Shown: piece after piece, positions 1-59,469 of the stretch | Position numbering within the stretch: position 1 is the first letter of the stretch | Layout: each line of letters opens with the position of its first letter | From: Ruania albidiflava DSM 18029 | Lineage (GTDB): Bacteria > Actinomycetota > Actinomycetes > Actinomycetales > Beutenbergiaceae | Assembly (NCBI RefSeq): GCF_000421225.1 | Contig: NZ_ATWL01000001.1 | Span: forward strand, 62,001 to 126,000 | DNA length: 64,000 nucleotides | Reading direction: 5' to 3' | Made by a program: the position numbers and the translations under genes | Notes under the pieces: generated by a model | The model's database searches: none | What the model saw: the letters and a program-made list of their open reading frames with translations, nothing else | What the model was told of the DNA's origin: nothing

Positions 1-391
1 GGCCACCCCGGACGGGATCGGGGAGCACTCCATCGCCGAGATCAAGACCTCGGTGGCGGACCTGGACAGTGCCGCTCGCACCTATGCCGACCAGCTGCAG
101 TGGCAGCTGCACGTCACTGGCTGCGAGCGAGTGCTGTTCGTGGTGGAGCACCGGCACACGCTGCGCCGCGACTTCCGCTGGATCGTCCGGGACGAGGCAC
201 GGATCGCGCTGCTGGCCGAGCATGCGGACGCATTCCTCGCCGAGCTAGACGCTGCCCGAGCCGCCTGGGTGGCGCGGGCCGAGCAGGAGGAGGTCGTCGC
301 GCACGGGTGGGACGAGCGCGCCCCGGAGACAGCACCTACCCCGGAAGACTGGGCCACCGTCACCCCGGCGCGCGTGGCGACCGGCACCTAG
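1..391 (+). CDS. YqaJ-like recombinase/exonuclease, C-terminal part
   Basis: The reading frame is open from base 2, so the gene begins before the window and only about the last 130 residues are here. The segment GEHSIAEIKTS carries the ExK end of the PD-(D/E)XK nuclease core, and YADQLQWQLHVTG is the Q-rich stretch typical of the YqaJ / lambda exonuclease fold. These enzymes digest linear double-stranded DNA from the 5' end. The tail after about residue 85 is acidic and Ala-rich. A GTG at 53 could start translation but would cut off the catalytic EIK, so it is not the true start. YqaJ proteins are often phage-borne, but no other phage gene is visible. Family call fairly sure; role unknown. 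Confidence 0.7.
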   Translation, partial: ATPDGIGEHSIAEIKTSVADLDSAARTYADQLQWQLHVTGCERVLFVVEHRHTLRRDFRWIVRDEARIALLAEHADAFLAELDAARAAWVARAEQEEVVAHGWDERAPETAPTPEDWATVTPARVATGT

Positions 392-472
392 TCCGGCCCT
401 GGCACCGTACGACCGGCCGCCCTCTCCGCGGCCGCAGGAGTCATCGCGCCCCCAGCACCCGGGTCCGGGAGC

Positions 473-478
473 TAGCAT
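473..478 (+). promoter_or_regulatory. -10 element of the PRPP synthetase gene
   Basis: TAGCAT fits the actinobacterial TANNNT -10 hexamer. Transcription would start near 485, giving a leader of about 28 bases that contains the GGGAGG ribosome binding site at 503-508. No good -35 is visible. Confidence 0.4.
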
Positions 479-512
479 GTGCCCAGCAGTCGCCGACGCG
501 AAGGGAGGCCGG

Positions 513-1568
513 ATGCGTCACGCCGGCCGGTGGGATGACACGAACGACATCGTGGTCTTCAGCGGCAGTGCCCACCCGGCGCTGGCGCGGAGCATCTGCG
601 CGGAGCTAGGGCTGACGGTCGCCCCCTCCCGCACGTCCCGGTTCTCCAACGACTGCCTGCAGTCCCAGCTGCTGAGCAACTGCCGGCAGCGGGACGTGTA
701 CATCGTGCAGCCGCTGGTGCCACCCACCCAGGACCACCTGATGGAGCTGCTGCTGATGGTGAATGCCGCCCGCGGCGCGTCGGCCGCGCAGGTGACCGCA
801 GTGATCCCGCACTTCGCCTACGCACGCTCGGACAAGAAGGACGCCTCCCGCATCTCCCTCGGTGGACGCCTGGTGGCGGACCTGCTGCAGACCGCTGGGG
901 TGGACCGGGTGCTGACGATGACGCTGCACGCCCCGCAGGTGCACGGGTTCTTCTCCGTGCCGGTGGACCACCTGACCGCGCTCGGGGTGCTCGCCGAGCA
1001 CTACCGGGAGCAGGACCTCACGGACTCGATCGTGGTCTCCCCGGACCTGGGCAATGCGAAGGAAGCGACCCAGTTCTCCCGGCTCCTCGGGCTACCGGTG
1101 GCGGCCGGGTCGAAGCAGCGGATGGCCGACGACCGGGTGGTGATCGACGCGATCGTCGGTGACGTGGCCGGCAAGCGGGCGATCATCCTCGACGACGAGA
1201 TCGCCACCGGCGGCTCGATCGTCACCCTGCTCGAGCGACTGGCGGCGGACGGCGCCACCGGGGCGAGCGTGGCGTGCACGCACGGCCTGTTCACCGGGTC
1301 GGCGCAGGAACGGCTCAGCGGGCACCCGATGATCACCGAGGTGGTCACCACCGACACGGTGCCGGCCCCGCCGGACTGGCACGAGCTGACCGCGCGGTCG
1401 GTGTCCCAGCTGTTCGCCGAGGCGATCCGGCGGGTGCACGAGGGGGAGTCGGTCTCCAGCCTGTTCGACGGTGTGGACCCCACGCACGCACCCCCGCAGC
1501 CCAGCCTGTTCGAACCGGACCACCGCGCGATGCCGCGCCGCGACTACGCCAGCGCCCCCGCCCGCTGA
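513..1568 (+). CDS. Ribose-phosphate pyrophosphokinase (PRPP synthetase), divergent
   Basis: Makes PRPP from ribose 5-phosphate and ATP for nucleotide, His and Trp synthesis. About 351 residues, a little longer than the usual 310-330 because of a C-terminal tail. The N-terminal half has IPHFAYARSDKK and TLHAPQVHGFF, matching the ATP-binding and DLHAxQ regions of Prs. The C-terminal half has VVSPDLGNAKEA and the PRPP loop ILDDEIATGGSI. The two acidic residues are kept, but the usual DTGGT reads ATGGS, and the flexible-loop KRR reads KQR. This makes it a diverged member, perhaps a second Prs beside a canonical one elsewhere. The ATG at 513 is chosen because GGGAGG lies four bases upstream; an in-frame ATG at 477 has no such site. 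Confidence 0.85.
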   Translation: MRHAGRWDDTNDIVVFSGSAHPALARSICAELGLTVAPSRTSRFSNDCLQSQLLSNCRQRDVYIVQPLVPPTQDHLMELLLMVNAARGASAAQVTAVIPHFAYARSDKKDASRISLGGRLVADLLQTAGVDRVLTMTLHAPQVHGFFSVPVDHLTALGVLAEHYREQDLTDSIVVSPDLGNAKEATQFSRLLGLPVAAGSKQRMADDRVVIDAIVGDVAGKRAIILDDEIATGGSIVTLLERLAADGATGASVACTHGLFTGSAQERLSGHPMITEVVTTDTVPAPPDWHELTARSVSQLFAEAIRRVHEGESVSSLFDGVDPTHAPPQPSLFEPDHRAMPRRDYASAPAR

Positions 1569-1578
1569 CCAGGCCTGC

Positions 1579-1938
1579 ATGGGTACCCAGACCGAGCCCG
1601 AGCACCGGGTGCGAGCTGGGCTGATCGGCCTGAGCGGCCTCGGCGTCGGTACGTTGCTGCTGCTCTGGGTCGCGATCGTGCCGATGGATGCGGTGTGCTC
1701 GGCGGTCGGCGGGTCCGGCGAGCTGCCCCCGTGCACTGCTGCGGACCGGATTGCAGCGGGTCTTGGGTGGAGCTTGAGAATCGGCGCGGGCTACGGTCTC
1801 AGCGCGGGTGTGGTGTTGCTGTTTGGGCGCCGTCGTTCGCGCGTCGTGGTTCCGGCGGTACTGGTCGGTTACGGGGTGCTGTGCTTGGTCGCTCTGGGCC
1901 AGGTGATGGCCTCGACCGGGGTCGTGCTGTCGGGGTGA
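1579..1938 (+). CDS. Small predicted membrane protein, unknown function
   Basis: 119 residues, starting 10 bases after the PRPP synthetase stop. Three hydrophobic stretches are visible: about residues 11-35, 66-85 and 89-112. The first and second are joined by a loop with two Cys (AVCSAV and LPPCTA) that could form a disulfide if outside. Part of the gene (about 1750-1930) is lower in GC than its surroundings. Only a poor ribosome binding site precedes the ATG, so it may be translated by coupling to the gene before. It faces fadB tail to tail with 55 bases between. I do not recognise the family; it could also be a chance open frame, although length and hydrophobicity argue for a real gene. 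Confidence 0.5.
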   Translation: MGTQTEPEHRVRAGLIGLSGLGVGTLLLLWVAIVPMDAVCSAVGGSGELPPCTAADRIAAGLGWSLRIGAGYGLSAGVVLLFGRRRSRVVVPAVLVGYGVLCLVALGQVMASTGVVLSG

Positions 1939-1993
1939 GATCGCCGTGTCGTGCCCGCCGGGTGCTGCCGCCCGGCGAGCACGACCAGATCGG

Positions 1994-4033
1994 CTATGCC
2001 AGCGCACCCTCGCGCTGCAGGTACGGGGTGATCCCGCCGAGGTGGAACGGCCAACCGGCGCCGAGGATCATGCCCAGGTCGATGTCCTCCTTCTCCGCCA
2101 CCACCTGCTCGTCCAGCATCATCCGGACCTCGTCGGCCAGTGCCTGCTGCACCCGCGCGAGCAGCGCGGCCTCGTCCTGCCCGCCGACCTCGGAACGGGA
2201 GCCGAAGTACCGGGCGATCTGCGGATCGACGGGGGACCCCGCGCTGGGGCGACCCTCAAAGATGACGAACGGGGCGCCGTCGGCAATCATCTGCTGCAGC
2301 CCGGGGGAGTCGGGGTAGCGGTCCCCGAGCTGTTCACGCAGCGTGTCCAGCACGTGCCCGGCCACGGCCGGGCCGACCAGCTGCAGCAGCTGGAACGGGC
2401 CCATCGGCAGCCCCATCGGCCGCAGCGCGCGGTCGGCCACGGTGACGTCGGTGCCCTCCTCCAGGGAGCCGAGCACCTCACCGAGCAGGCGCACCAGCAG
2501 CCGGTTCACCACGAACCCGGGCGCGTCGGCGACCGCGATGGCCGACTTGCGACAGGCCTTGGCGACGGTGAACGCCGTTGCGTACGTGGCGTCGTCGGTG
2601 CGCTCGGTGCGGATCACCTCCACCAGCGGCATCTGGGCGACCGGGTTGAAGAAGTGCAGGCCGACCACCCGCTCGGGATGAGCCAGGTGCGCGGCCATGT
2701 CGGTGATGGACAGCGCCGAGGTGTTGGTGGCCAGGACGGCGTCCGGGCGGATCACCTGCTCCAGGTCGGCGAAGACCTGCTGCTTGACGCTCAGCTCCTC
2801 GAACACCGCCTCGATCACCAGGTCCGCCTCGGCCAGGTCGGCGAGGTCTGTGGTGCCGGAGACCAGGGAGCGGATCCGGTTGGCCTCGGCCTCGCCGATG
2901 CGGCCCTTGGCCACGAGCGTGTCCAGCTCGGCGCTGACATAGCCGACACCACGCTCGGTGCGCTCGGCGTCCAGGTCGCGCATGATCACCGGCACCTGCA
3001 TCCGGCGCGCGAAGAGCAGGGCCAGCTGGGAGGCCATCAGCCCGGCCCCGGCCACGCCGATGCTGCGCACCGGTCGGGCCAGGTCCGCCTCCGGGGCGCC
3101 GGCCGGGTTCTTGGCTCGACGGCTGGTCAGGTCGAAGGCGTACACACCAGCAGCGAACTGCGGGGAGCAGATCAGCTCGGCCAGCGCCACGTTCTCCGCC
3201 TCGAAGCTCTCCGCCCGCTCGCTGGTGGCAGATACCTCGAGCAGGTCCAGGGCGCGGTAGGCAGCCGGTGCCGCCCCGTGCAGGCGGGCGTCCACCTGCT
3301 GGCGGGCGGCGCCGATCATCGTCTTCGCCTCGTCGACCGGGGTGGGCTCGCGGCGCTCGGGGGTGATGTCGCCGCGGAGCACGCTGACGGTGAACCGCAG
3401 GGACTCGGCGAGGAAGTCCGCCGAGTCGAGCACCGCGTCGGCGATGCCGAGCTCGCCGACCTGGGCAGCCTTGAGCTGGGTGTTGTTGCGCAACGGGTTG
3501 GTGATGATCACCTGCAGCGCGTTCTCCATGCCGATCAGCCGGGGCAGGTGGTAGGTGCCGCCCCAGCCCGGGATCAGCCCGAGGAACACCTCCGGCAGGC
3601 CCACGGCGCGGACCGCGGACGAGACGGTGCGGTAGTCGCAGGCCAGCGCCAGCTCGAGCCCGCCGCCGAGGGCCACGCCACCGATGTAGGCGAACGTGGG
3701 CACCGGCAGGTCGGCGAGGATCGCGTAGGTCTCATGGCCCATCTCGGCGATCTGCCGAGCCGCCTCCGGGGTGGTCAGCTGGGCCGCCTCGTGCAGATCG
3801 GCCCCGGCGGCGAAGTGGAACTGCTTGCCGGTGACGCCCACGGCGACGATCTCACCGGCCTCGGCGCGCGCGCTGAGCCGTTCCAGCGCAGTACGCAGCT
3901 CGGCCATGCCCTCGGGGCCGAAGGTGATCGGCTTGGTGGGACCGGCGCCGTTCTCCAGAGTGATCAGGGCGAGGGTGCCCAGGTCCTCCAGCTGTACGTC
4001 TCGGACTAGGGCGCGGGTGATCCGCTCGGTCAT
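1994..4033 (-). CDS. fadB: 3-hydroxyacyl-CoA dehydrogenase / enoyl-CoA hydratase (FadB type)
   Basis: Bifunctional beta-oxidation enzyme, 679 residues: hydrates trans-2-enoyl-CoA and oxidises 3-hydroxyacyl-CoA with NAD. The N-terminal crotonase domain (about 1-190) has GVALGGGLELALACDYRT for the oxyanion hole and LPEVFLGLIPGWGG with the catalytic Glu. A linker leads to the Rossmann domain (from about 310) with GVAGAGLMASQLALL; the more usual GAGxMGxGI is altered to MAS. The catalytic-His motif is GLHFFNPVAQMPLVEVI, followed by the C-terminal HAD domain with DAPGFVVNRLL. The ATG at 4033 is chosen because it overlaps the fadA stop by four bases (ATGA), giving coupled translation of thiolase then multifunctional enzyme; an upstream in-frame start would run into fadA. 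Confidence 0.93.
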   Translation of the reverse strand: MTERITRALVRDVQLEDLGTLALITLENGAGPTKPITFGPEGMAELRTALERLSARAEAGEIVAVGVTGKQFHFAAGADLHEAAQLTTPEAARQIAEMGHETYAILADLPVPTFAYIGGVALGGGLELALACDYRTVSSAVRAVGLPEVFLGLIPGWGGTYHLPRLIGMENALQVIITNPLRNNTQLKAAQVGELGIADAVLDSADFLAESLRFTVSVLRGDITPERREPTPVDEAKTMIGAARQQVDARLHGAAPAAYRALDLLEVSATSERAESFEAENVALAELICSPQFAAGVYAFDLTSRRAKNPAGAPEADLARPVRSIGVAGAGLMASQLALLFARRMQVPVIMRDLDAERTERGVGYVSAELDTLVAKGRIGEAEANRIRSLVSGTTDLADLAEADLVIEAVFEELSVKQQVFADLEQVIRPDAVLATNTSALSITDMAAHLAHPERVVGLHFFNPVAQMPLVEVIRTERTDDATYATAFTVAKACRKSAIAVADAPGFVVNRLLVRLLGEVLGSLEEGTDVTVADRALRPMGLPMGPFQLLQLVGPAVAGHVLDTLREQLGDRYPDSPGLQQMIADGAPFVIFEGRPSAGSPVDPQIARYFGSRSEVGGQDEAALLARVQQALADEVRMMLDEQVVAEKEDIDLGMILGAGWPFHLGGITPYLQREGALA

Positions 4034-5244
4034 CGCTGGTTCTCCTTCTCCTCGGCGTGGTGCGGGTTGGCCCAGATCACCGAGCCGCCCTGGCCCAGAC
4101 CCACGCACATGGTGGTCAGGCCGTAGCGGACCTCAGGGTGGGCCTGGAACTGGCGGGCGAGCTGGCTCATCAGCCGGATGCCGGAGGCGGCCAGCGGGTG
4201 GCCGACCGCGATCGCACCGCCGTAGGGGTTGATGCGCGGGTCGTCGTCGGGGATGTCGAAGGCGTCCAGGAAGGCGAGCACCTGGACGGCGAAGGCTTCG
4301 TTGATCTCGATCAGGCCGAGGTCCTCGATGCTCAGTCCCGCCAGGTCGAGCGCCTTGCGGGTGGCCGGCACCGGGCCCAGGCCCATCAGCGCCGGGTCCA
4401 CCCCGGCGTAGGCGTAGGAGACCAGCCGGGCCCGGGGGGCCAGACCGAGCTCGGCGGCCAGGTCGGCGGAGGTGAGCAGGGCGGCGGTAGCGCCGTCGGT
4501 GAGCGGGGAAGAGGTGGCGGCGGTGACCCGCCCACCGGGGCGGAACGGAGTGGGCAGGTCGGCCATACCCGCGACAGTGGTGCCGGGGCGGGGTGGTTCG
4601 TCGGCGGTGGCCAGGCCCCAGCCGCGCTCCGGATCGGGTACGCCGACCGGGACCAGGTCGGGGGTGATGTGGCCTGCGGCGAGGGCCTCGGCGTACTTGC
4701 GCTGGGAGGCTTCGGCGTAGGCGTCCGCTCGCTCGCGGGTGAGTGCCGGGTAGGTGTCGTGCAAGTTCTCCGCGGTGGCGCCCATCACCAGGGCGTCGGA
4801 GGCGACGAGCCGTTCGGTGAGGAACCTGGGGTTGGGGTCGGCGTCCTTGCCCAGCGGGTGGTGTCCCATGTGCTCCACCCCGCCGGCGAGCACGGCGTCC
4901 GCCGCCCCTACGGCCACCTGGGCGGCCACCGAGGTGACGGCGGACATCGCCCCGGCGCACATCCGGTCGATGGCGTAGCCGGGCACCTCGCCGGGCAGGC
5001 CGGCGAGCAGCCCGACGGTCCGGCCCAGGGTGAGTCCCTGGTCGCCGACCTGGCTGGTGGCAGCGATGGCGACCTCGTCGATCTTCTCCGGCGGAAGCTC
5101 GGGGTGGCGGCGGAGCAGGTCCCGCACCACCGCGGTGGCGATGTCATCAGCGCGGGTGTGCGCGTACAGGCCGTCGGGCTTGGCGCGGCCGAAGGGGGAG
5201 CGAAGTGCGTCAACGAGCACGACGTCACGGCCGAGGAGTGGCAT
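4030..5244 (-). CDS. fadA: Acetyl-CoA C-acyltransferase (3-ketoacyl-CoA thiolase)
   Basis: 404 residues, the usual thiolase length. It cleaves 3-ketoacyl-CoA with CoA in the last step of beta-oxidation. The acylated cysteine is C96 in [11 protein letters not shown], the general-base His is H349 in GHPLAASG, and the second Cys is C380 in CVGLGQGGS. It is the first gene of the two-gene operon; its stop overlaps the fadB start. The ATG at 5244 is preceded by GGGAGG about five bases upstream. The leader further up carries a GTAC-rich inverted repeat that may be the operator for fatty-acid control. Confidence 0.94.
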
Positions 5245-5276
5245 CAGGACCTCCCGGTCACCTCAGTGAGACTGCG

Positions 5277-5308
5277 AGTACTAGGTACTTTCGGTACCAC
5301 TGTAGTAC
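5277..5308 (-). promoter_or_regulatory. GTAC-rich inverted repeat upstream of fadA (putative operator)
   Basis: Four GTAC tetramers lie within 32 bases (from 5278, 5285, 5294 and 5305). The outer AGTACT and GTAGTAC and the inner GGTAC and GGTACC form an imperfect dyad centred near 5291. It sits 33-64 bases before the fadA ATG, where a repressor would act. No regulator gene is adjacent, so its partner is unknown. Confidence 0.4.
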
Positions 5309-5340
5309 GTGCACCGCCAGGGTGCTGACCGGTGCGCGGA

Positions 5341-5427
5341 CCGGGTGAAGCGATACCTGCGGCGCCGCGGCGATACCGCGGAGCACGTCCGCACGGGCGA
5401 AGTATCGCCCGAATCGTTTCAACCCGG
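5341..5427. repeat. Palindromic intergenic repeat, family A copy 1 (end of rnd)
   Basis: The core at 5369-5421 has arms GGCGATAC (5369-5376) and GTATCGCC (5402-5409) around a 25-base loop, then CGAATCGTTTCA. Outer arms CCGGGTGAAGCGAT (5341-5354) and the complement of 5412-5427 pair with one bulge and one mismatch. A near copy with identical arm and loop lengths is at 50308-50360, sharing the 19-base start GGCGATACCGCGGAGCACG. It lies between the 3' end of rnd and the fadA promoter, so it may end rnd transcription. Confidence 0.75.
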
Positions 5428-5461
5428 GGTGGGAGCCGCGGGGTGGTGGGGTGGGGGCGGG

Positions 5462-6697
5462 TCAGGGGGCGGCGTCGAGGAGCTGGTGGCTGAGCGCGTC
5501 GGCCACCTGCTCGATCTGCCAGTCCCGTGCGCCGAGCTCGTGCAGGCTCTCTGCCACAGCCTCGGCGGAGATCCGGCGCGGCGGCGACCAGGCCAGGCGG
5601 CGCTGGTACTCCGGGGTGAGCAGGTTCTCCTGCGGCAGGTGCAGCTCCTCGGCGATGGTACGTACCGTGCTGCGCACCACCACCAGGCGCTCCGCACCCT
5701 CGGGGTTGCGGTCCCGCCACGCCTTCGGCGGGGGAAGGCTGTCCGAGACCGGTGCCCGCCGGGAGGGGTAGCTGGAGGGATCCAGGGCCGTGGCCCGCCG
5801 CAGCGCCTCGAACCAGGTGCGCAGCCGCCGGGCCGCGTTCTTCGTGCGGAACCCGGGCAACCTGCCCAGCTCGGCCATCGTGTCCGGGCGGGCGACGGCA
5901 GCGGCGACGATGGCAGCGTCGGTGAGCACCCGGCCGGGGGCGATGTCTGCGGCACGGGCCTGGGCGTCCCGGGTGTTCCAGAGCTCGCGCACGATCGCCA
6001 GGCCGAGTCCGTCGCGAACCTGGTGGCTGCCCGAGGTCCGCCGCCACGGGTCTCGGCGCGGCGGGGGCGGCGGGGCGGTGCGGACGGCCTCGAACTCCTG
6101 CTCGGCCCATTCCAGCTTGCCGGCCTCGGCGAGCTCGGCAGCAAGCTTGGTGCGCAGCTCGACCAGCACCTCCACGTCCAGGGCGGCGTAGCGCAGCCAG
6201 TCCTCCGGCAGCGGCCGGGTGGACCAGTCGGCGGCCGAGTGCTCCTTGGCCAGCTCCAGGCCGAGCTCCTCGGCGACCATCGTGCCGAGCCCGACCCGCT
6301 GGTAGCCGAGCAGCCGGGCGCCGAGCTCGGTGTCGAACAGCGCACCCGGGCGCATCCCGACCTCGGCCAGGCAGGGCAGGTCCTGGTTGGCGGCGTGCAG
6401 CACCCACTCCGCGGTACCGATCACCTCGGACAAGGCGCTCAGGTCGGGCAGGGCCTGCGGATCGATCAGGGCGGTGCCGGCGCCTTCCCGGCGCAGCTGC
6501 ACCAGGTAGGCGCTCTGCCCGTACCGGTAGCCGGAGGCGCGCTCAGCGTCCACCGCCACCGGTCCGGTGCCGGCGGCGAACGAGGAGACGGTCTCGGCCA
6601 GCGCCTGCGGGGTGTCCACCACCCCGGTGAGCCCATCGGCGGGCTCGGTCAGTGGCGTCAGTTCCTGGTCGGTCTCCGGTGTGCGTGCTGAGCTCAT
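5462..6697 (-). CDS. rnd: Ribonuclease D-type 3'-5' exonuclease with HRDC domain
   Basis: 411 residues. The N-terminal DEDDy exonuclease domain shows VDAERASG (D50 and E52, motif I), LHAANQDLPCL (motif II Asp), DTELGARLLGY, and YAALDVEVL (the Tyr and Asp of motif III). This fits exonucleolytic trimming of structured RNA such as tRNA precursors. From about residue 215 an HRDC-like helical region follows (ALVSYRELWNTRDAQA-type start, then GFRTKNAARR), and a second such segment is near the C-terminus. Its start overlaps the stop of the DUF3000 gene by four bases (ATGA), a pairing common in actinobacteria. The family repeat at 5341-5427 follows its 3' end. Confidence 0.9.
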   Translation of the reverse strand: MSSARTPETDQELTPLTEPADGLTGVVDTPQALAETVSSFAAGTGPVAVDAERASGYRYGQSAYLVQLRREGAGTALIDPQALPDLSALSEVIGTAEWVLHAANQDLPCLAEVGMRPGALFDTELGARLLGYQRVGLGTMVAEELGLELAKEHSAADWSTRPLPEDWLRYAALDVEVLVELRTKLAAELAEAGKLEWAEQEFEAVRTAPPPPPRRDPWRRTSGSHQVRDGLGLAIVRELWNTRDAQARAADIAPGRVLTDAAIVAAAVARPDTMAELGRLPGFRTKNAARRLRTWFEALRRATALDPSSYPSRRAPVSDSLPPPKAWRDRNPEGAERLVVVRSTVRTIAEELHLPQENLLTPEYQRRLAWSPPRRISAEAVAESLHELGARDWQIEQVADALSHQLLDAAP

Positions 6698-7272
6698 CGT
6701 TTCGGCTTCAACGGGCTGACGTTGTCCGGGATCGGCGGCAGCCCGGCCGCCTGACAGGTCATCAGCGCCCAGGACCGCAGGTGCGGTGCCAGGTCGGTGG
6801 AGTTGGGCGTCCAGGAGGCACGGATCTCGATCTCCACCTCACCGGAACGCAGCTCCAGCCCGCCGAAGGTCTCCGACAGCACCCGGGTGACCGTTCCCGA
6901 CAGCGAGTGGTACCCGGCGTCCTGGGCCTCCAGGGCGTCGGTGAGCCAGGACCAGCCGACCTCGCCGAGCATCGGGTCGGCGGCGAACTCGTCCTCCAGG
7001 GTGGCCCGGGCCATCACGATCACCCGGAACTCCCCGTTCCACGCTTCCTGGCCCTCCGGGTCGTAGAGCACCACGAACCGTCCCGAGCCGAGCATCTCTT
7101 CCGGGTCGTCGCTCGGGTTCACCTCACCGGTCAGGGCCAGGGCGTAGGGCGCGATGCGAGTGGGTGGCGGGATCTCCTCCAGGCGCAGCTCAGGGCGCAT
7201 CCGGTGCCCGCGCAGGCTCAGCAAGGCGGCCTCGAAGTCCGGAGGCGCGACCGGGGTGCGCTGCACGTTCAC
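6694..7272 (-). CDS. DUF3000 domain protein
   Basis: 192 residues, full family length. It is an actinobacterial protein of unknown function that is nearly always found beside an RNase D gene, as here. Recognisable stretches are FEAALLSLRGHRMRPELRLEEIPPP near the N-terminus (given in part) and GRFVVLYDPEGQEAWNG and GWSWLTDALE in the middle. There is no signal peptide or membrane segment. The GTG at 7272 has no ribosome binding site. Instead TAGCCT ends exactly six bases upstream, so the mRNA probably starts at the start codon (leaderless) and carries rnd as the second gene. Confidence 0.85.
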   Translation of the reverse strand: MNVQRTPVAPPDFEAALLSLRGHRMRPELRLEEIPPPTRIAPYALALTGEVNPSDDPEEMLGSGRFVVLYDPEGQEAWNGEFRVIVMARATLEDEFAADPMLGEVGWSWLTDALEAQDAGYHSLSGTVTRVLSETFGGLELRSGEVEIEIRASWTPNSTDLAPHLRSWALMTCQAAGLPPIPDNVSPLKPKR

Positions 7273-7278
7273 GTGTAC

Positions 7279-7284
7279 AGGCTA
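7279..7284 (-). promoter_or_regulatory. Leaderless -10 (TAGCCT) of the DUF3000-rnd operon
   Basis: TAGCCT read on the minus strand is followed by six bases and then the GTG start at 7272. Six to seven bases from a TANNNT hexamer is the position of transcription start, so the transcript would begin with the start codon. Confidence 0.55.
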
Positions 7285-7374
7285 AGCCGCCCACCTGACC
7301 GGGACCGGCAGGGCGCGCCGAGGGGAGCCGGTAGACTCACCGCGGCCCGCGCACGCTAGGAGGATCCCGACCGG

Positions 7375-8613
7375 ATGAGCTCGACCAGGCTGCGGCCGGT
7401 GCTGCTCGGCACCGACCTGGGCATCTACGCGATGGCCCGCTCCTTCCACGAGACCTTCGGGGTGACCTCGGTGGTGGTCAGCGAGCTGCCCCGCGGCCCG
7501 GTGAACGACTCGGCCATCCTGCAGAACGTGTTCACCGGCGCCGACTCCAGCGAGGAGGACACGCTCAGCGCACTGAAGAACGTGGCCGCGCAGGAGCCGG
7601 GGAGCACCCACGTGCTGCTGGTGAACTCCGACCACCAGCTCGCCTTCGTGCTGGCGCACCGGGAGCAGCTGGAGCAGCACTACGTGGTCCCCTACGCCGA
7701 TGCGGCGGCGGTCGCCCGGTTGGCGGACAAGACCGCGATGTACCGGGTGCTCGCCGAGCTCGGCATCCCGGCGCCGGCCACTGTGCCGGTCGAACCGGGT
7801 GCCGGTGAGCAGGCCTGGCGGCAGGCTGCCGAGGGCCTGACCTACCCGATCGTGATGAAGCCGTTCGCCGGTGCAGAGTTCGAGGAGCTGGACTTCGCCG
7901 GGCACCGCAAGGTCTACCGCCTGGACGATGCCGAGGAGCTGGTCACCGAGCTGCACCGGATCGCCGCCACCGGGTACACCGGCACGATGCTGCTGCAGCA
8001 GCTCGTCCTCGGCGACGACACCTACAACCGGGTGGTGAACGTCTACCGGGACCGCCGGGGCCAGCTGACCATGGCGGCCTCCGGGCAGGTGCTGCTGGCC
8101 ATGCACCAGCCGACCTTCATCGGAAACTCAGCGATCATCATGGTCGACTACGACGAGCAGCTGATCGAACCGGTGCGCGCGGTGCTGGAAGCGGTGGATT
8201 ACCGCGGGTTCGCCAGTGTGGACTTCAAGGTGGACTCCCGCACCGGTGTGGCCTACCTGCTGGACATCAACCCCCGGCCGGGCCGCTCGCACTATTACGC
8301 CGGCGTCGGTGGGGCGTCCGCGGCACGGAGCGTGGTGGCGGACTTCGTCACCGACACCGCGCTGCCCACCCAACGGGCCACCCGACCGGGGGTGTACGCC
8401 TACATCCCCACATTCGTGCTCGGCCGCTACGTGCGCGACCGCGCACTGCTGCACCGGGTGCGAGCGGTGCTGCGCCGCCGCCGGGCGGTGCACCCGCTGG
8501 CCTATGCCGCCGATCGCAACCTCAAACGGTGGTGGTACCGGGTCTTGGCGCAGGTGAACCAGCTGCGCGGGCTGTGGCGCTACTACCGGCGGCCCACCGA
8601 CTCCGGCTTCTGA
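7375..8613 (+). CDS. ATP-grasp carboxylate-amine ligase, possibly of cell-wall crossbridge type
   Basis: 412 residues. It has a preATP-grasp N-terminal domain (about 1-115), then the ATP-grasp fold. YPIVMKPFAGAEFEEL holds the ATP-binding Lys, GFASVDFKVDSRTG precedes the metal-binding LLDINPRPGRSHYYAG with its Asp-x-Asn. The last 60 residues are Arg-rich. The family includes D-aspartate ligases that add the bridge residue to peptidoglycan precursors, and many Micrococcales have such dicarboxylate bridges; applying that here is inference. The start has a strong AGGAGG at 7361-7366. A TAGACT at 7332-7337 is a likely -10. It converges with the Usp-like gene across the hairpin at 8628-8673. Confidence 0.75.
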   Translation: MSSTRLRPVLLGTDLGIYAMARSFHETFGVTSVVVSELPRGPVNDSAILQNVFTGADSSEEDTLSALKNVAAQEPGSTHVLLVNSDHQLAFVLAHREQLEQHYVVPYADAAAVARLADKTAMYRVLAELGIPAPATVPVEPGAGEQAWRQAAEGLTYPIVMKPFAGAEFEELDFAGHRKVYRLDDAEELVTELHRIAATGYTGTMLLQQLVLGDDTYNRVVNVYRDRRGQLTMAASGQVLLAMHQPTFIGNSAIIMVDYDEQLIEPVRAVLEAVDYRGFASVDFKVDSRTGVAYLLDINPRPGRSHYYAGVGGASAARSVVADFVTDTALPTQRATRPGVYAYIPTFVLGRYVRDRALLHRVRAVLRRRRAVHPLAYAADRNLKRWWYRVLAQVNQLRGLWRYYRRPTDSGF

Positions 8614-8627
8614 CCACCCCACGTCCG

Positions 8628-8673
8628 GTCCTCATGCTGGGCGTGCGCCCTAGCGCACCCTCAGCATGACGAC
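8628..8673. terminator. Hairpin, palindromic repeat family B copy 1
   Basis: Arms at 8628-8648 and 8653-8673 (21 bases each, three mismatches) surround the loop CCTA. The arm contains TCATGCTGGGCGTGCGC, which recurs exactly in the hairpin at 57048-57097. It lies between two convergent genes, so it can serve as a two-way terminator; there is no T-run. Confidence 0.75.
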
Positions 8674-8691
8674 CCGGTGGGGGTGCTGGCG

Positions 8692-9165
8692 CTAGCCCAG
8701 CCGGTTGGTGCCGGCGTACAGGTGCAGCACCGGTAGGCCGAGCTCCTCGCGGGCCTTGGAGGCCCAGTCGGCGTGGAAGGTGTCCTCCACAGCGTGCGGC
8801 CGGGTGACCACCACGAGCTCGTCGGCACGCAGGTTGTTCACCGCCTGGGTGAGGGCCGGCAGCGGGTCGTCGGCGATCACGTGCCCGTCCGCCACCGCCC
8901 CGGCCTCGGTGAGCCGTTGCAGGGAGAGCTGCAGTGCCTCGCCGGCCTCCTGCTTGGCCTCGTCGGCACCGGGCCGGTGGGTGAGGGACTCCCATGCTTC
9001 CCGCAGCTCGAACAGGGACAGGTGGTTGATGAAGTCCGAGACCAGGTTCCTCGAGGTGTCCGCCGGCACCAGCACGTGAAAGGTGGCGTCGGGATGCAAC
9101 CCCAGGATGTTGCTGATGTCGTCAGCACGCAGGGCTTCCTCGGTGAGGACGATGATCGTGGCCAT
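8692..9165 (-). CDS. Universal-stress-protein-like protein
   Basis: 157 residues. The fold pattern suggests an alpha/beta nucleotide-binding-like protein of the Usp group: MATIIVLTEEAL, ATFHVLVPAD, ADELVVVTRPH and LGLPVLHLYAG look like the parallel strands, and there is a helical, acidic middle. The glycine-rich ATP motif (GxxGx9GS/T) of ATP-binding Usps is missing, so ATP binding is doubtful. The ATG at 9165 lies exactly six bases after TATGCT (9172-9177), another leaderless-type start. It converges with the ATP-grasp gene. The assignment is by pattern only. Confidence 0.55.
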   Translation of the reverse strand: MATIIVLTEEALRADDISNILGLHPDATFHVLVPADTSRNLVSDFINHLSLFELREAWESLTHRPGADEAKQEAGEALQLSLQRLTEAGAVADGHVIADDPLPALTQAVNNLRADELVVVTRPHAVEDTFHADWASKAREELGLPVLHLYAGTNRLG

Positions 9166-9171
9166 CCCCTG

Positions 9172-9177
9172 AGCATA
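9172..9177 (-). promoter_or_regulatory. Leaderless -10 (TATGCT) of the Usp-like gene
   Basis: TATGCT on the minus strand, then six bases (CAGGGG), then ATG at 9165. The spacing predicts that transcription starts at the A of the ATG. Confidence 0.55.
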
Positions 9178-9242
9178 GAGGTCGACGGCGGAGCCTGGGG
9201 TGGTCGGTCCGGCTCGCCCGGGCCGGTGGTGCGGCCCTAGGT

Positions 9243-9668
9243 TCAGCTGGTCGGCACCTGGGCGCCGTGGCCGGCTGCGCGGAGCGCGTCCCGGACCGTC
9301 TCGGCGGCCTGGTCCAGCTCCTCGGCCGGTGCGGGGCTGGTGGCGCCGAGGTCGAAGTCGGCGGCCGAACGGCTGGGCCAGACGTGCACGTGCGCGTGCG
9401 GCACCTCGTACCCCTGGATCAGCAACCCGATGCGGGCCGGGTCGTACGCCTGCTGCTGGGCCTTGCCGATCGTCTGCGCGACGGCGAACAGGTGCCCGGC
9501 CAGGTCGGCGGGCAGGTCCACCCAGTGGCTGATCTCCTCCCGCGGGACCACCAGCACGTGCCCGGGCTGCAGGGGTTCGATGGTCAGGAAGGCGGCGCAC
9601 CGGTCGTCGGACCAGACGAACCGGCCCGGGATCTCCCCGGCGATGATGCGGCTGAAGACGGTGGTCAT
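9243..9668 (-). CDS. HIT family nucleotide hydrolase
   Basis: 141 residues from the ATG at 9668, which has GAGGAGG upstream; an in-frame start at 9716 adds 16 residues without a site. It begins FSRIIAGEIPGRFVW, the classic Hint/PKCI start, and ends the catalytic region with HAHVHVWP (H91, H93, H95), the histidine triad. Such proteins split nucleoside phosphoramidates or dinucleotides. This is the smaller of two HIT proteins in the window (the other is at 41906-42451). It shares no operon with the iron genes downstream. Confidence 0.88.
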   Translation of the reverse strand: MTTVFSRIIAGEIPGRFVWSDDRCAAFLTIEPLQPGHVLVVPREEISHWVDLPADLAGHLFAVAQTIGKAQQQAYDPARIGLLIQGYEVPHAHVHVWPSRSAADFDLGATSPAPAEELDQAAETVRDALRAAGHGAQVPTS

Positions 9669-9749
9669 GGTCCTCCTCGGTTCCGAACTGGCTGCTTCCA
9701 CGCTAGCGGGTCGCACGCTGCCCAGCCCACGCCCACGCTGCCCCAGTCC

Positions 9750-9805
9750 CGAACGCCCGACTTCGCGACCTGGATCGTTTCAGCCGCCGCGAACCCCAGC
9801 GTTCG
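9750..9805. repeat. Palindromic intergenic repeat with CTGGATCGTTTCA core (end of iron operon)
   Basis: Imperfect 18-base arms at 9750-9767 and 9788-9805 (CGAACGC and TTCGCG ends pair) enclose a 20-base loop holding CCTGGATCGTTTCA. The same 14 bases occur in the family A copy at 50347-50360. It lies just after the 3' end of the iron ABC operon (minus strand), so it may terminate it. Confidence 0.65.
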
Positions 9806-9818
9806 CGAATGGGGTGGG

Positions 9819-10574
9819 TCAGTAGTAGACCGCCAGCGGACCGTTCGGGCCGTCGATCACCTGCACCGGCGTGTCGAACACCTCGGTGAGCACCGGTGCG
9901 GTCATCACCTGTGCGCACGGGCCGAACTCGACCACAGCGCCGTCCTTGACCGCGCAGATGTAGTCGGCGTAGTGGCTGGCGAAGTTCACGTCGTGCAGCA
10001 CGATGACGATCGTGCGGCCGAGCTCGGCCGCTGCGCGGTGCAGGTGCTTCATCATCTGCACGCTGTGACGCATGTCCAGGTTGTTCAGCGGTTCGTCCAG
10101 GAGCACGAACTCGGTGTCCTGGCAGAGCACCATCGCTACGTATGCGCGCTGCCGCTGCCCGCCGGAGAGCTCGTCCAGGTACCGGCCCTCCAGGTCGGCG
10201 AGCTCGAAGAAGTCGATCGCCTGGCTGATCATCTCCTCGTCCACAGCGGTCAGCCGACCCTTGGAGTGCGGGAACCGGCCGAAGGCCACCAGCTGGCGCA
10301 CGGTCAGCCGGGTGATGAAGTGGTTCTCCTGGCGGAGCACCGAGACCACCTTGGCGAGGTCCTTGGAGCGGGTCCGGGCCACGTCGTACCCGGCGATCTC
10401 GATCGTGCCGGCGTCCAGACCGAGCAACCGTCCGATCAGGGTGAGCAACGTGGACTTCCCGGCACCGTTGGGTCCGATCAGCGCGGTGATCCCACCGGCG
10501 GGGATCGCCAGGTCGACCGGGCCGATGCGTACCTCGCTGGTGTAGTCCTTGCGTACGCCGTCGAGAGTGATCAC
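9819..10574 (-). CDS. Ferric-siderophore ABC transporter ATPase
   Basis: 251 residues, the cytoplasmic ATPase of the iron uptake system encoded upstream. Walker A is GPNGAGKST (residues 34-42), the signature is LSGGQRQRAYVAM, Walker B is TEFVLLDEPLNNLD, and the switch His lies in VLHDVNFA. The pattern matches the FepC/FecE group. It is the last gene of the operon; its ATG overlaps the stop of the permease by four bases. An inverted repeat lies behind the 3' end. Confidence 0.92.
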   Translation of the reverse strand: MITLDGVRKDYTSEVRIGPVDLAIPAGGITALIGPNGAGKSTLLTLIGRLLGLDAGTIEIAGYDVARTRSKDLAKVVSVLRQENHFITRLTVRQLVAFGRFPHSKGRLTAVDEEMISQAIDFFELADLEGRYLDELSGGQRQRAYVAMVLCQDTEFVLLDEPLNNLDMRHSVQMMKHLHRAAAELGRTIVIVLHDVNFASHYADYICAVKDGAVVEFGPCAQVMTAPVLTEVFDTPVQVIDGPNGPLAVYY

Positions 10575-11623
10575 AGGCGCCCCTTTCGGAGGATGACGAC
10601 CAGGAAGGTCACACCGCCCACCAGCTCGATGATGATGGAGACCACGCCCTGGGCGTAGAACAGGTTCTTCATCACGAAGTAGGCCCCGGACAGCACCACG
10701 AAGCCGGTGAGCACCGCGACCGGGAGCACGTGCCGGTGGTCGTGCGTGTCGGCGAACTGGTAGGCGAGGGTGGCGACCAGGAAACCGAGGAACGTCATCG
10801 GTCCGACCAGGGCGGTGGAGGTGGCCATCAGCACCGCCACCAGCACCAGCACCACGACGAGCTCACGGCGGTGGTTCAGGCCGAGCCCGGTGGTCACGTC
10901 CCGGCCCAGGGCCATCACGTTCAGCCGGCGGGCCCGGCGCCAGAGCAGCAGCCCGGCGCCGGCGGCGAGCGGTACGGCGATCGGCAGGTAGTCGGCATCG
11001 GCACTGGAGATCGAGCCGAACAGGCGTGCGGTGAGGAGGTCGAACTCGCTCGGGGTGAGCAGGCGCTGCAGGAACGTGGACACCGATCCCAGACCGGCAC
11101 CGATGATGATGCCGATGAGCAGCAGCACGTGCAGGTTCCCGTGCTTGCCGGAGAGCAGCCAACCGTAGAGCGCCACCGCCAGGCCCACCATGAGCACGAT
11201 CTGACCGATGAACTGTGGCACGCCGGTGAGCATGGTCAGCCCGGTGGCGCCGAGCAGGTAGATCGCCCCGGTCTGCACCGCCACGTACAGGGACTCGAAC
11301 CCGAGGATCGAGGGGGTGACGATCCGGTTCGTGGTGACAGTCTGGAAGGCGACCGTGGCCATCGCCTGGCAGAACGCCACGATGAGCATGACCAGCACGT
11401 TCTTGCTGCGCAGCGCCACGATCCGCCAGAACCCTGCGGTGCCCACCGGCATCGGGTTGTCCCAGACGACCAGGGCGATGCCGAACGCGGCTGCCAAGAG
11501 CGCCAACCCGATCAGCACCAGCCAGTAGCGTCGCGCCCGGCGGGTGCCGGGGAGCGCTGCGGAGGTGCGCACCGTCCTGGGTGGGGTCGGGGTCGCGCGC
11601 ACGGCGGTGGTCAGCTCAGCCAT
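10571..11623 (-). CDS. Iron-siderophore ABC permease (FecCD/BtuC type)
   Basis: 350 residues and about nine to ten hydrophobic helices after a 30-residue cytoplasmic N-terminus rich in Thr and Pro. Family marks are NRIVTPSILGFESLY near the N-terminal third and VGPMTFLGFLVATLAYQF (in the helix that contacts the ATPase) near the C-terminus. It forms a heterodimeric channel with the permease upstream, whose stop it overlaps by eight bases. It is downstream of the IdeR-type box at 13679-13697 and is probably induced by iron lack. Confidence 0.9.
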   Translation of the reverse strand: MAELTTAVRATPTPPRTVRTSAALPGTRRARRYWLVLIGLALLAAAFGIALVVWDNPMPVGTAGFWRIVALRSKNVLVMLIVAFCQAMATVAFQTVTTNRIVTPSILGFESLYVAVQTGAIYLLGATGLTMLTGVPQFIGQIVLMVGLAVALYGWLLSGKHGNLHVLLLIGIIIGAGLGSVSTFLQRLLTPSEFDLLTARLFGSISSADADYLPIAVPLAAGAGLLLWRRARRLNVMALGRDVTTGLGLNHRRELVVVLVLVAVLMATSTALVGPMTFLGFLVATLAYQFADTHDHRHVLPVAVLTGFVVLSGAYFVMKNLFYAQGVVSIIIELVGGVTFLVVILRKGRL

Positions 11624-12599
11624 GGCGCCGCTGCCTGAGGATCAGGATGATGAACACCGCCGCACCGACCACACCGAGGATGAGGGAGACCGGTACCTCG
11701 AAGGGCATGATGATGGTGCGCCCGATCAGGTCGCACACGGTGACGATGGCGATCCCGAGCAGGCACACCCAGGGCAGGTTGGACCGCAGGTCGTCACCGC
11801 GGACCATGGACACGATGTTCGGCACGATCAGCCCGAGGAACGGCAGGTTGCCGACCACCACGGTGACCACCCCGGTCGCCAGGGCGATCAGCACTGTGCC
11901 CAGCAGCACCACACGTTGGTAGCTGACGCCGACCGTGGTGGCGATCTCCTCGCCGAGGCCCGCGACGGTGAACCGGTCCGCCACCAGGAACACCACCACG
12001 CCGACTGCGGCCACGATCCACAGCGGCTCGTACTGCCCGCGCAGCACTGTGGTGAAGCTCCCGGCGAACCAGATGCCGAGGTTCTGCAGCATGTCGGTCT
12101 GCAGCGCGACGAAGGTGGAGACCGAGCCGACCACGGCGCCGAGCATGATGCCGACGATCGGCACGATCAGCGAGGACCGCAGCGACACCTGCCGGAGGAA
12201 CGCGAAGAACAGCATGGTGCCCAGGAAGGCGGCGATCACAGCGCCGCTCATCCGCGTCAGGATGCTGGCCGAGGGAAACAGGATCATCGTCACCAGCAGC
12301 CCCAGTCCCGCCCACTCGGTGGTGCCGGTGGTCGTGGGCTCCACGAACCGGTTCTGGGTGAGCAGCTGCATCACCAGCCCGCACATCGACATCGCCGCAC
12401 CGGCCAGCACCAGGGCGATGGTCCGCGGGATGCGGGTGATGGCGAACATCTGGCTGCCGTCCTCGGCTCCGAAGACGTCGTAGACGCCGATGAGCAGCGA
12501 GCCGACCAGCAGCGCCAGCACGGCCAAGGTCCCCAGCAGCAGCTTCCAGTCGAAGAGCGTGCGGGATCCCGGCCGTGCTGGCGTCACTGCAGTCGTCAT
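11616..12599 (-). CDS. Iron-siderophore ABC permease (FecCD/BtuC type)
   Basis: 327 residues with about nine transmembrane helices. NRFVEPTTTGTTEWAGLG and VGNLPFLGLIVPNIVSMVRG are the typical FecCD substrate-path and ATPase-contact segments. It is the second gene of the operon, five bases after the stop of the binding protein, and overlaps the next permease by eight bases. The two permeases are distinct genes, as in Fep and Fec systems, not one homodimer. Confidence 0.9.
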   Translation of the reverse strand: MTTAVTPARPGSRTLFDWKLLLGTLAVLALLVGSLLIGVYDVFGAEDGSQMFAITRIPRTIALVLAGAAMSMCGLVMQLLTQNRFVEPTTTGTTEWAGLGLLVTMILFPSASILTRMSGAVIAAFLGTMLFFAFLRQVSLRSSLIVPIVGIMLGAVVGSVSTFVALQTDMLQNLGIWFAGSFTTVLRGQYEPLWIVAAVGVVVFLVADRFTVAGLGEEIATTVGVSYQRVVLLGTVLIALATGVVTVVVGNLPFLGLIVPNIVSMVRGDDLRSNLPWVCLLGIAIVTVCDLIGRTIIMPFEVPVSLILGVVGAAVFIILILRQRRHG

Positions 12600-12604
12600 C
12601 AGGG

Positions 12605-13609
12605 TCAGCTCGCGGCCTCGAAGGCGTCGGCCAAGGTGTTGAAGAACTCCGTGTAGGTCTGGATGCCCTCGTTGGTGTAGGTGTCCGCGGGCATGTACAC
12701 GATCTGGTCGGACTGCACTGCGGTGACGTTCGTCAGCGCTGCCGAGCCCTCCAGGACCTCGGCTGCCGGGGTGTACTCCGGGTCGTCCGCCATGACGGCC
12801 GCATCCCGGTCCATCACCAGGATCCAGTCCGGGTCGGAGTCGGCGATCGCCTCCACGGAGATCTCGTCTCCCTGGTGGTCGGTGCTGGCGTCCTCCACCT
12901 CCAGGGCAGGGGTGAGGTCCAGGATGTCGAACACCGGACCGAGGGTACGCCCCTCACCCGGAGCGGAGTAGCCGATCTGGCCACCGGAGGTGATCACCGC
13001 CATCACCGTGCTCTGGCCGTCATAGGCAGCACTCGCCCGTTCGATCGCGGCCTCGAAGTCTTCGACCAGGGTCTGCGCCTCGTCCTGCTTGTCGAACACC
13101 TCACCGAGCACGGTCACCTGCCGGGCGAGCTCGGTGTCGAACGGCTCGCCCTCGCGCGGGTCCAGCTCCAGGATGGTGGCCTCCGGCACCAGCTCGACGA
13201 AGTCGTCGTGGTACTGGGAGAACCGCTGGCCGTTGACGATCAGGTCGGGCTCGGCCGCGACGACCGCTTCCAGGTCCGGTTCCCGGTGGCTGCCCAGGTC
13301 CACGATCGAGTCGTCCTCGGTGTACGGGATCGTGCTGGGCATCAAGGACACGGCTCCGGCGGAGAGCTCCACGCCCCAGTCCGAGAGTGTCTCGAACGTG
13401 CGGTTGTCGGTGGCGACGACGGAGGTCGGTGGCGAGGGCACGGTCTGGGTGCCGTTGTTGTCCTCGACCTCGATGGTGGCACCCTGCTCGGTGCTCGCCG
13501 ACTGCCCGCCACAGGCGGCCACGGCGAGCACAGCACCGGCAGCGGTGGCCGCGAGCAGGGCGCGGGTAGTGCGAGCGGCACGAGGGCCACGGAGGGGGTT
13601 CGATGGCAT
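12605..13609 (-). CDS. Siderophore-binding lipoprotein
   Basis: 334 residues. An Arg-rich start and hydrophobic stretch lead to the lipobox LAVAACGG, with lipidation at about C33, so the protein is anchored outside the membrane. The mature part is the periplasmic-binding fold of iron-siderophore receptors: VVATDNRTFETLSDWGVEL, then EPDLIVNGQRFSQYHDD, and a long linking helix. It delivers the ferric complex to the two permeases. AAGGA precedes the ATG at 13609. The iron box lies about 70 bases upstream. The siderophore itself cannot be told, and no synthesis genes are in the window. Confidence 0.9.
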   Translation of the reverse strand: MPSNPLRGPRAARTTRALLAATAAGAVLAVAACGGQSASTEQGATIEVEDNNGTQTVPSPPTSVVATDNRTFETLSDWGVELSAGAVSLMPSTIPYTEDDSIVDLGSHREPDLEAVVAAEPDLIVNGQRFSQYHDDFVELVPEATILELDPREGEPFDTELARQVTVLGEVFDKQDEAQTLVEDFEAAIERASAAYDGQSTVMAVITSGGQIGYSAPGEGRTLGPVFDILDLTPALEVEDASTDHQGDEISVEAIADSDPDWILVMDRDAAVMADDPEYTPAAEVLEGSAALTNVTAVQSDQIVYMPADTYTNEGIQTYTEFFNTLADAFEAAS

Positions 13610-13678
13610 GGTGATCCTTCACTGAGCATGCGGACGGGTCCAGGGGCTGCCCTGGACGGAACATCTCCACCCTAGAGG

Positions 13679-13697
13679 TGAGCGTAGGCTTACCTTA
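13679..13697. promoter_or_regulatory. IdeR/DtxR-type iron box
   Basis: TGAGCGTAGGCTTACCTTA matches 14 of 19 positions of the DtxR/IdeR consensus TTAGGTTAGGCTAACCTAA, with the central TAGGCT and ACCT intact. It lies between the siderophore-binding gene (minus) and pabC (plus), 70 bases from the first and 62 from the second. Iron-loaded repressor would block the uptake operon. Confidence 0.75.
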
Positions 13698-13746
13698 CTG
13701 GTTCTCAGATGAATTTGATCACATCACCATGTCATAAACCGGGGCC

Positions 13747-13752
13747 TATCCT
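13747..13752 (+). promoter_or_regulatory. Leaderless -10 (TATCCT) of pabC
   Basis: TATCCT is followed by six bases (GCTGTT) and the GTG start at 13759. There is no purine-rich ribosome site, so a leaderless mRNA is expected. Confidence 0.6.
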
Positions 13753-13758
13753 GCTGTT

Positions 13759-49482: not shown

Positions 49483-50244
49483 ATGGCGGGGCACTCCAAG
49501 TGGGCGACGACCAAGCACAAGAAGGCGGCGATCGACGCCAAGCGAGGCAAGCTGTTCGCCCGGCTGATCAAGAACATCGAGGTGGCTGCCCGTACCGGTG
49601 GTGGGGACCCGGCTGGCAACCCGACCCTGTATGACGCGATCCAGAAGGCGAAGAAGTCCTCTGTGCCCGGGGACAACATCGACCGTGCGGTCAAGCGCGG
49701 CTCTGGCCTGGAGGCTGGCGGTGCCGACTACCAGACGGTGATGTACGAGGGGTACGCACCCGGCGGTGTGGCCGTGCTGGTGGAGTGCCTCACCGACAAC
49801 CGCAACCGGGCGGCCTCGGACGTGCGGGTGGCGTTCACCCGCAACGGCGGCTCGTTGGCCGACCCGGGCAGCGTGTCCTACCTGTTCACCCGCAAGGGCG
49901 TCATCCTGGTGCCGAAGAGTGACGGGGTGGGCGAGGACGAGGTGCTCACCGCTGTGCTGGAGGCCGGTGCCGAGGAGGTCAACGACCACGGCGAGGTGTT
50001 CGAGGTGATCAGCGAGGCCGGCGACCTGGTGGATGTGCGCACCGCGCTGCAGGCCGCCGACCTGGACTACGACTCCGCTGAGGCACAGTTCGTGCCGGCC
50101 ACACAGATCGAGGTGGACGCCGACGGCGCGCGCAAGGTGCTGCGCCTCATCGACGCGCTCGAGGACAGCGACGACGTGCAGAACGTGTTCGCGAACTTCG
50201 ACGCCTCCGACGAGGTGCTCGCCGAGCTCGAGCAGGACGGCTGA
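49483..50244 (+). CDS. yebC: YebC/PmpR-family protein
   Basis: 253 residues. [20 protein letters not shown] is the exact family start (usual form W-x-x-I, here WATTK). Also [18 protein letters not shown] and the end [19 protein letters not shown]. Family members are transcription regulators, and some help ribosomes through polyproline stalls. GAGAGG precedes the ATG. It comes before ruvCAB, as in many bacteria, but is cut off from them by the repeat at 50308. Confidence 0.94.
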
Positions 50245-50307
50245 TCGCGACTCGATCGCCGCTACGGGGGCGGCCGCCGGTTTGCGCCGCGACACCTAGC
50301 GCGCCGG

Positions 50308-59465: not shown

Positions 59466-59469
59466 CGGT

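Follow-up and report, generated by a model that had tools for sequence, protein, structure and literature searches.

A 72-base element with four half-sites, present in about 50 copies in each of three related Ruania genomes and mostly located just beyond gene ends

A 72-base element is present in about 50 copies in each of three related Ruania genomes, mostly just beyond gene ends. We interpret it, with a rough probability of 0.4, as a DNA-level element at transcription-unit ends, where a putative bound protein would block RNA polymerase, perhaps together with Rho. Two copies lie in the window, i.e., the whole 64,000-nucleotide stretch of Ruania albidiflava DSM 18029 DNA that was analysed. A sequence-only reading had described these as twins 45 kb apart, with an exact 19-base start and equal 8-base arms around a 25-base interval, and this twin is real (0 of 100 shuffles): GGCGATACCGCGGAGCACG is found at 5369–5387 and again at 50308–50326, the arms GGCGATAC and GTATCGCC enclose 25 bases in both copies (5369–5409 and 50308–50348), and both copies share the ending ATCGTTTCA (ends 5421 and 50360). 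The window contains two matches with up to three mismatches, as compared to a mean of 0.03 in dinucleotide shuffles, none of 100 of which reached two; the pattern GGCGATAC-N(15-35)-GTATCGCC was found at 14 places in the R. albidiflava genome, and its backward control at none. The conserved unit is longer than claimed (5350–5421 and 50289–50360) and includes an extra half-site upstream of the claimed start. The features of both copies and their neighbouring genes are as follows.

5350–5421, plus strand: copy 1, entire conserved unit (alignment columns 3–74; model match C1:67350-67433, plus strand)
5350–5357, plus strand: copy 1, outer left half-site GCGATACC (sequence, dyad analysis)
5370–5377, plus strand: copy 1, inner left half-site GCGATACC (sequence, dyad analysis)
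5381–5388, minus strand: copy 1, inner right half-site in a variant form, consensus GAGCACGA, here GAGCACGT (sequence, dyad analysis)
5401–5408, minus strand: copy 1, outer right half-site AGTATCGC (sequence, dyad analysis)
5410–5421, no strand: copy 1, operator-like palindrome, a form of TGAATSGATTCA, here CGAATCGTTTCA (sequence, conservation)
5422–5461, minus strand: C-rich, G-poor leader from the rnd stop codon to copy 1, read on the gene strand (sequence, leader statistics over copies)
5462–6697, minus strand: rnd, with its 3′ end towards copy 1 (codon-usage gene call)
50289–50360, plus strand: copy 2, entire conserved unit (columns 3–74; model match C1:112289-112372, plus strand)
50309–50316, plus strand: copy 2, inner left half-site GCGATACC (sequence)
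50340–50347, minus strand: copy 2, outer right half-site CGTATCGC (sequence, dyad analysis)
50349–50360, no strand: copy 2, operator-like palindrome TGGATCGTTTCA (sequence)
49483–50244, plus strand: yebC, upstream of copy 2, with its 3′ end towards the palindrome-free side (gene call; orthologous gaps in eight genomes)
50420–51019, plus strand: ruvC, downstream of copy 2 (gene call)

The gene names are presumptive; rnd and yebC come from the first reading and ruvC from recognition of the protein, rather than from database results.

Aligned copies present conserved blocks at columns 3–10, 16–17, 23–30, 34–41, 47–48, 53–61, and 63–74. When the inverted symmetry of the column profiles was scored at all centres, a single clear centre emerged (i+j=64, 0.33 bits per pair; next best −0.69), on which an outer pair of half-sites (columns 3–10 and 54–61) and an inner pair (columns 23–30 and 34–41) are nested. 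Three half-sites follow the consensus KCGWTACY and the fourth is the variant TCGTGCTC; the palindrome TGAATSGATTCA adjoins only one flank of this four-half-site dyad. Register and motif are kept in 45 of 47 R. albidiflava copies, 48 of 54 copies in the congener G003, and 45 of 47 readable copies in the congener G007 (Candidatus Ruania gallistercoris); the in-register analyses accordingly omit 10 copies that failed the motif filter (2, 6, and 2, respectively) and one G007 copy with a short flank. Spacing is fixed, while the spacers themselves are merely 42–50% alike between copies within a genome. A helical-turn periodicity of the conserved blocks was looked for and was not significant. The 25-base interval had been taken for a loop of free sequence; it contains the conserved block GAGCACGA.

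A sequence-only model (R1) was built from 31 gap-free aligned R. albidiflava copies. Among 59 genomes (its own, seven congeners, and 51 others), copies at E 1e-6 numbered 47 in R. albidiflava, 54 in G003, and 48 in G007; the profile model search found none in the 51 other genomes and none in the five other Ruania genomes, suggesting that the element does not serve a general need. All 47 R. albidiflava matches had an E of 1.2e-8 or better, and the matches below them, down to E 2e-4, were reverse-strand matches on copies already counted (1.7e-5 and weaker) and one 23-bit match at C20:26697. A broader model (R2, with alignment A2) was built from 84 of the 138 copies, 28 from each genome, and, over 396 genomes of the order, matched only the three carriers apart from two single weak matches; these two, in G035 and G166, fall within called genes and were discarded as chance matches. 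Because relatives were scored on the best 75 (R1) or best 12 (R2) candidates per genome with strict filters, these searches could miss weak relatives. An exact-pattern scan of a genome contig collection returned four loci, all from Candidatus Ruania gallistercoris; the same kind of scan of viral contigs and a blastn search of plasmids and phages with copy 1 returned none, both having low sensitivity for diverged copies. Rfam matched four tRNAs and neither copy in the window at the gathering threshold, and, even at E up to 10, nothing in a 251-base stretch surrounding another copy. A literature search, to which most subscription journals were out of reach, found no description of the element. 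A role as a DNA uptake word was rejected: GCGATACC occurs three times in 64 kb, each time within the two elements, and 13 of 100 shuffles reach three.

The sequence-only reading also predicted further intergenic copies biased to gene 3′ ends, and this bore out; neither a lack of further copies nor a spread of copies inside genes was seen, as none of the 149 copies in the three genomes lies inside a called gene. With genes from a codon-usage caller and overlaps of up to 45 bases with a gene scored as lying beside it, 19 of the 149 model matches overlap a neighbouring called gene, by at most 27 bases. The palindrome side is turned towards a 3′ end in 41/46 R. albidiflava copies (p 4.4e-8), 41/54 G003 copies (p 1.8e-4), and 36/47 G007 copies (p 3.5e-4), as compared to 24/47, 36/54, and 30/48 for the other side; these counts are not independent, since many sites are common to the three genomes. 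The palindrome side stands at a gene start in 5/46, 13/54, and 11/47 copies, respectively, which argues against the unit-end reading. Copy 2 is one of these five R. albidiflava copies: both window copies do follow the 3′ ends of rnd and yebC, as had been noted, but in opposite senses, with the TGAATSGATTCA side towards the rnd end in copy 1 and, in copy 2, towards the ruvC start, the other side facing the yebC end.

Median distances from the stop codon to the palindrome are 44 (R. albidiflava), 41 (G003), and 27 (G007) bases. Leader composition was evaluated for copies with 15–100 bases in this interval (34/41, 27/41, and 21/36, respectively). In R. albidiflava, the leader contains 61.5% C and 17.4% G (34 copies) versus 38.4% and 34.7% at 47 other 3′ ends (p 1.6e-13), where the comparison gaps were drawn from the window and from regions around copies or palindromes and do not form a random sample; a C-rich, G-poor leader was also found in G003 (p 3.1e-6) and G007 (p 7.0e-6). 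C-rich, G-poor RNA of this sort is what Rho loads on. The rnd gap of G003 has a C-rich stretch and no element, suggesting that the leader may occur independently of the element. Several of the genes that end at an element are presumably housekeeping genes, such as gpmA, sucD, and ackA, as recognised from their sequences. Divergent gaps are nearly avoided (1/45 R. albidiflava copies versus 17/78 other gaps from the same sources as the comparison gaps above, p 0.003). In tandem pairs, the far side of the element precedes the next start codon by a median of 105, 115, and 123.5 bases (R. albidiflava, G003, and G007), leaving room for a promoter.

Convergent gaps hold 19/45 R. albidiflava copies versus 19/78 other gaps. 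This excess, together with about 50 multi-half-site copies across the chromosome, would be consistent with a chromosome-organisation site for gyrase or a nucleoid protein (BIME-like in effect, or nucleoid-occlusion-like), placed past gene ends as the least harmful position or where supercoils gather. Such a site would, however, predict neither the one-sided relation to 3′ ends nor the C-rich leader, and the 54 copies on G003 showed no significant chromosome-scale clustering (Rayleigh p 0.25; largest gap p 0.21); we therefore consider this role very unlikely.

The kept arms had been read as selection for a stem, a claim that finds little support; half-site sequence and spacing are clearly kept instead. 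The claimed helix would pair the inner left half-site (columns 22–29) with the outer right one (columns 55–62). Across 31 R. albidiflava copies, RNAalifold found no conserved hairpin of these arms, and neither the long arms, the claimed arms, nor the palindrome showed covariation above shuffles; an RNA hairpin of the claimed arms was rejected as the main constraint. When all column pairs were scanned in 138 copies, with shuffling within each genome, columns 58-61 (inside one half-site) ranked first and 3-61 second. Among proposed pairs, strong couplings were limited to 3-61 (z 16.5), 23-61 (z 7.8), and the palindrome pair 66-71 (z 4.8); since column 61 could pair with only one of columns 3 and 23, its coupling looks like one of half-site type. 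Summed arm pairing in the 138 copies presented a small excess in the true register (z 4.2 for 21 pairs; z 2.1 for the inner 13; slid-register controls from z −1.9 to 0.9), mostly from one base coupled in three half-sites (columns 3, 23, and 61); in R. albidiflava alone the excess was z 1.0. On the gene strand, copies fold better than their dinucleotide shuffles (mean z −2.06 in R. albidiflava, −1.62 in G003, and −1.52 in G007; z below −2 in 21/45, 14/48, and 15/45 copies) and have a slight edge over arm-swapped copies (an equally good fold in 1, 1, and 0 of 30 swaps). Folding and arm-pairing excess thus favour some, possibly minor, role of structure.

These results bear on a further explanation, an mRNA 3′ stem-loop whose arms would fold in the transcript and protect its 3′ end or give hairpin-dependent termination of the U-less, I-shaped kind. 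The inverted-repeat layout beyond stop codons, the folding surplus over shuffles and arm-swapped copies, and the small arm-pairing excess in the true register are all consistent with it, as are the U-less stem-loop ends reported in Streptomyces (PMC8269248). We nevertheless consider it quite unlikely, given the lack of a conserved RNAalifold hairpin and, in R. albidiflava, of covariation beyond shuffles, arm positions that mostly pair no more than composition predicts, a column 61 coupled beyond one helix, and inner half-site consensuses that are not complementary (GCGATACC versus TCGTGCTC on the other strand). T-runs after the dyad (at least four T in eight within 21 bases) also speak against it, being found in 0/41, 3/41, and 2/36 copies (5/118 in total). 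An intrinsic-terminator scan of window positions 1–20000 found four candidates versus 2.4 expected. Since the true arms pair within single copies only a little more than in shuffles, a DNA site read by a protein fits better than an RNA hairpin.

The interpretation as a protein-read mark of unit ends fits best with the kept spacing, the conservation of the half-sites, the association of one side with 3′ ends, and the leader; from the anatomy, copy number, and placement observed here we infer protein binding, a polymerase block, and a part for Rho. A sequence-specific, probably oligomeric putative protein would read the four half-sites as two nested inverted pairs at fixed spacing, and TGAATSGATTCA would be read by the same putative protein or by a second one. 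RNA polymerase leaving the gene would meet the bound protein, stall, and be released, perhaps with the help of Rho; this release would insulate the next transcription unit.

The palindrome TGAATSGATTCA was also found upstream of genes, in an operator-like placement, in the genomes G004 and G005, and it resembles a LacI-family operator; the genes behind it were taken for sugar-use genes. In G005 (L232) and in G004 (L234), a gap between divergent genes contains two such palindromes separated by about 98 bases, in the manner of LacI-type operator pairs; both genomes are free of the element. Within R. albidiflava, the palindrome also belongs to a second repeat, family C (TCGCGAACGCTC...TGAAYCGRTTCA...GAGCGTTCGCGA, with TGAAYCGRTTCA at its centre), which was present in 19 of the 20 loci selected for their palindrome, mostly 28–44 bases past stop codons and often between convergent genes. 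We count the upstream placements and the presence of the palindrome in family C at gene ends in favour of the protein-read unit-end interpretation. In the window, family C is found at 59469–59531 and around 9771 (further loci: L298-L312 and L314-L317); it was absent from 96 G003 and G007 loci, all of them around copies of the element. At up to one mismatch, the genomes contain 66 (R. albidiflava), 50 (G003), and 50 (G007) palindromes, 32, 43, and 42 of which, respectively, belong to the element, so that the surplus, and probably family C, is found mainly in R. albidiflava. A third palindrome, GTCATGCTGGGCGTGCGC and its complement, lies past C-rich gene ends at window positions 8613–8691 and 57053–57093.

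As to the history of the copies, 29 of 47 R. albidiflava sites share both flanking genes with a copy in G003 or G007, and sites without a partner are no proof of absence, as gene order breaks and G007 is fragmented. Shared sites have the same or flipped orientation in 21 and 2 cases (R. albidiflava and G003), 20 and 2 cases (R. albidiflava and G007), and 29 and 2 cases (G003 and G007), one of the last two flips being doubtful because a neighbouring copy fits better; distances to stop codons differ between shared sites by a median of 27, 26.5, and 29 bases. The yebC gap has the element in R. albidiflava and G003 and lacks it in G007 and the five other congeners, while the rnd gap has it in R. 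albidiflava only. In G007, the rnd gap (L113) contains an unrelated strong palindrome within a 134-base stretch predicted at −80 kcal/mol. It appears as if different dyads could occupy one slot at a gene end.

Orthologous copies of G003 and G007 are 0.811 alike versus 0.662 for non-orthologues. For R. albidiflava, orthologues are barely more alike than non-orthologues, at 0.673 versus 0.661 with G003 (shuffle p 0.028) and 0.672 versus 0.654 with G007 (p 0.0035), and its copies resemble each other at 0.714, above their orthologues. In the 13 bases beyond the element this contrast is absent (orthologues 0.530, 0.500, and 0.529), so that in the R. albidiflava lineage the element bodies have changed together at old sites. 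Termination as such does not explain this joint change, which could reflect either copying between sites or following of a changed putative reader.

The main rival is a mobile palindrome, REP- or MITE-like and non-autonomous, that was acquired by the ancestor of the three species, is moved by a putative enzyme, and settles near 3′ ends with a preferred direction, any effect on transcription being incidental. This would account for the restriction of about 50 copies each to three of eight genus members, the differing presence at the orthologous yebC and rnd gaps, the few copies flipped between the same genes, and, as after a new burst, the greater likeness among R. albidiflava copies (0.714) than with G003 orthologues (0.673). 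We regard it as somewhat unlikely, however, as the 29 shared sites nearly always keep their orientation, one length and register are kept despite diverged spacers, the R. albidiflava search revealed no series of truncated copies, and the eight genus genomes contain no RAYT, nor did the scans of viral contigs, plasmids, and phages, of low sensitivity, return anything. Among MITE features, the outer half-sites are inverted and the palindrome is one-sided; flanks are too diverged to judge target duplications. No autonomous partner was recognised among the candidates tried (PF04480, PF01797, and an AbiEi_4/MTES_1575-like gene). The DUF559 endonuclease (PF04480) was rejected as a mover; it is present in five of eight genus genomes (none in R. 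albidiflava or G003, two in G007) and does not follow the element. A gene lies between two inverted copies in all three carriers (L004, C1:379386-380447; L166 in G003; L207 in G007). It gave weak, below-cut-off matches to MTES_1575 and AbiEi_4 and is broken in R. albidiflava; because relatives (about 30% identity) are found in all eight genus genomes, it is only a lead as a mover.

The three options named by the sequence-only reading (a terminator family, a protein-binding site, or a mobile palindrome) remain apt. Like REP and BIME sequences with their TnpA-REP (RAYT) transposases, the element is short, multicopy, extragenic, and palindromic, and often lies past gene ends; it differs in its 72 bases, its four half-sites, and its occurrence as single copies rather than REP/iREP arrays. 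REPs are defined (PMC8266576) by a conserved tetranucleotide, most often GTAG, before a palindrome of 20–50 nt. In the 12 bases at either foot of 138 copies, GTAG was found in none and GGAG in four, and the Y1 transposase RAYT/TnpA-REP (PF01797) was found in none of the eight genus genomes at E 0.01; given these tests of the GTAG foot and the RAYT gene, the element was not filed as a REP. BOX and RUP of pneumococcus are likewise lineage-limited short intergenic repeats, and the Ruania element differs from them in its nested protein-type dyad, its one-sided link to 3′ ends, and the lack of a known mover. With intrinsic terminators, including the U-less I-shaped form, it shares inverted repeats and a place past the stop codon; it keeps half-site sequence rather than pairing and, having no U-tract as a rule, was not filed among them. 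With LacI-family operators it shares the 12-base TGAAnCGnTTCA-type palindrome, which also lies upstream of the G004 and G005 genes, whereas in the element the palindromes are at gene ends, beside four half-sites, in about 50 copies; the likeness is one of sequence and placement. The likeness to roadblock proteins such as lac repressor (PMC4132739) concerns the proposed mechanism only; the Ruania element has about 50 dedicated copies at gene ends and a protein that is putative.

It is conceivable, if rather doubtful, that one Ruania lineage possesses a putative protein-read mark of unit ends, a dyad and palindrome behind a Rho-type leader, that would be rewritten in concert, at unchanged sites, when its reader changes, with family C filling the same slot in one species. 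The element may once have been mobile and now be used, so that both readings may hold. Little is understood of how high-GC actinobacteria with few U-tract terminators end transcription, and a repeat of fixed geometry at gene ends provides a concrete object for studying it; its joint change at conserved sites represents a clean case in which coevolution of reader and sites can be set against copies overwriting one another.
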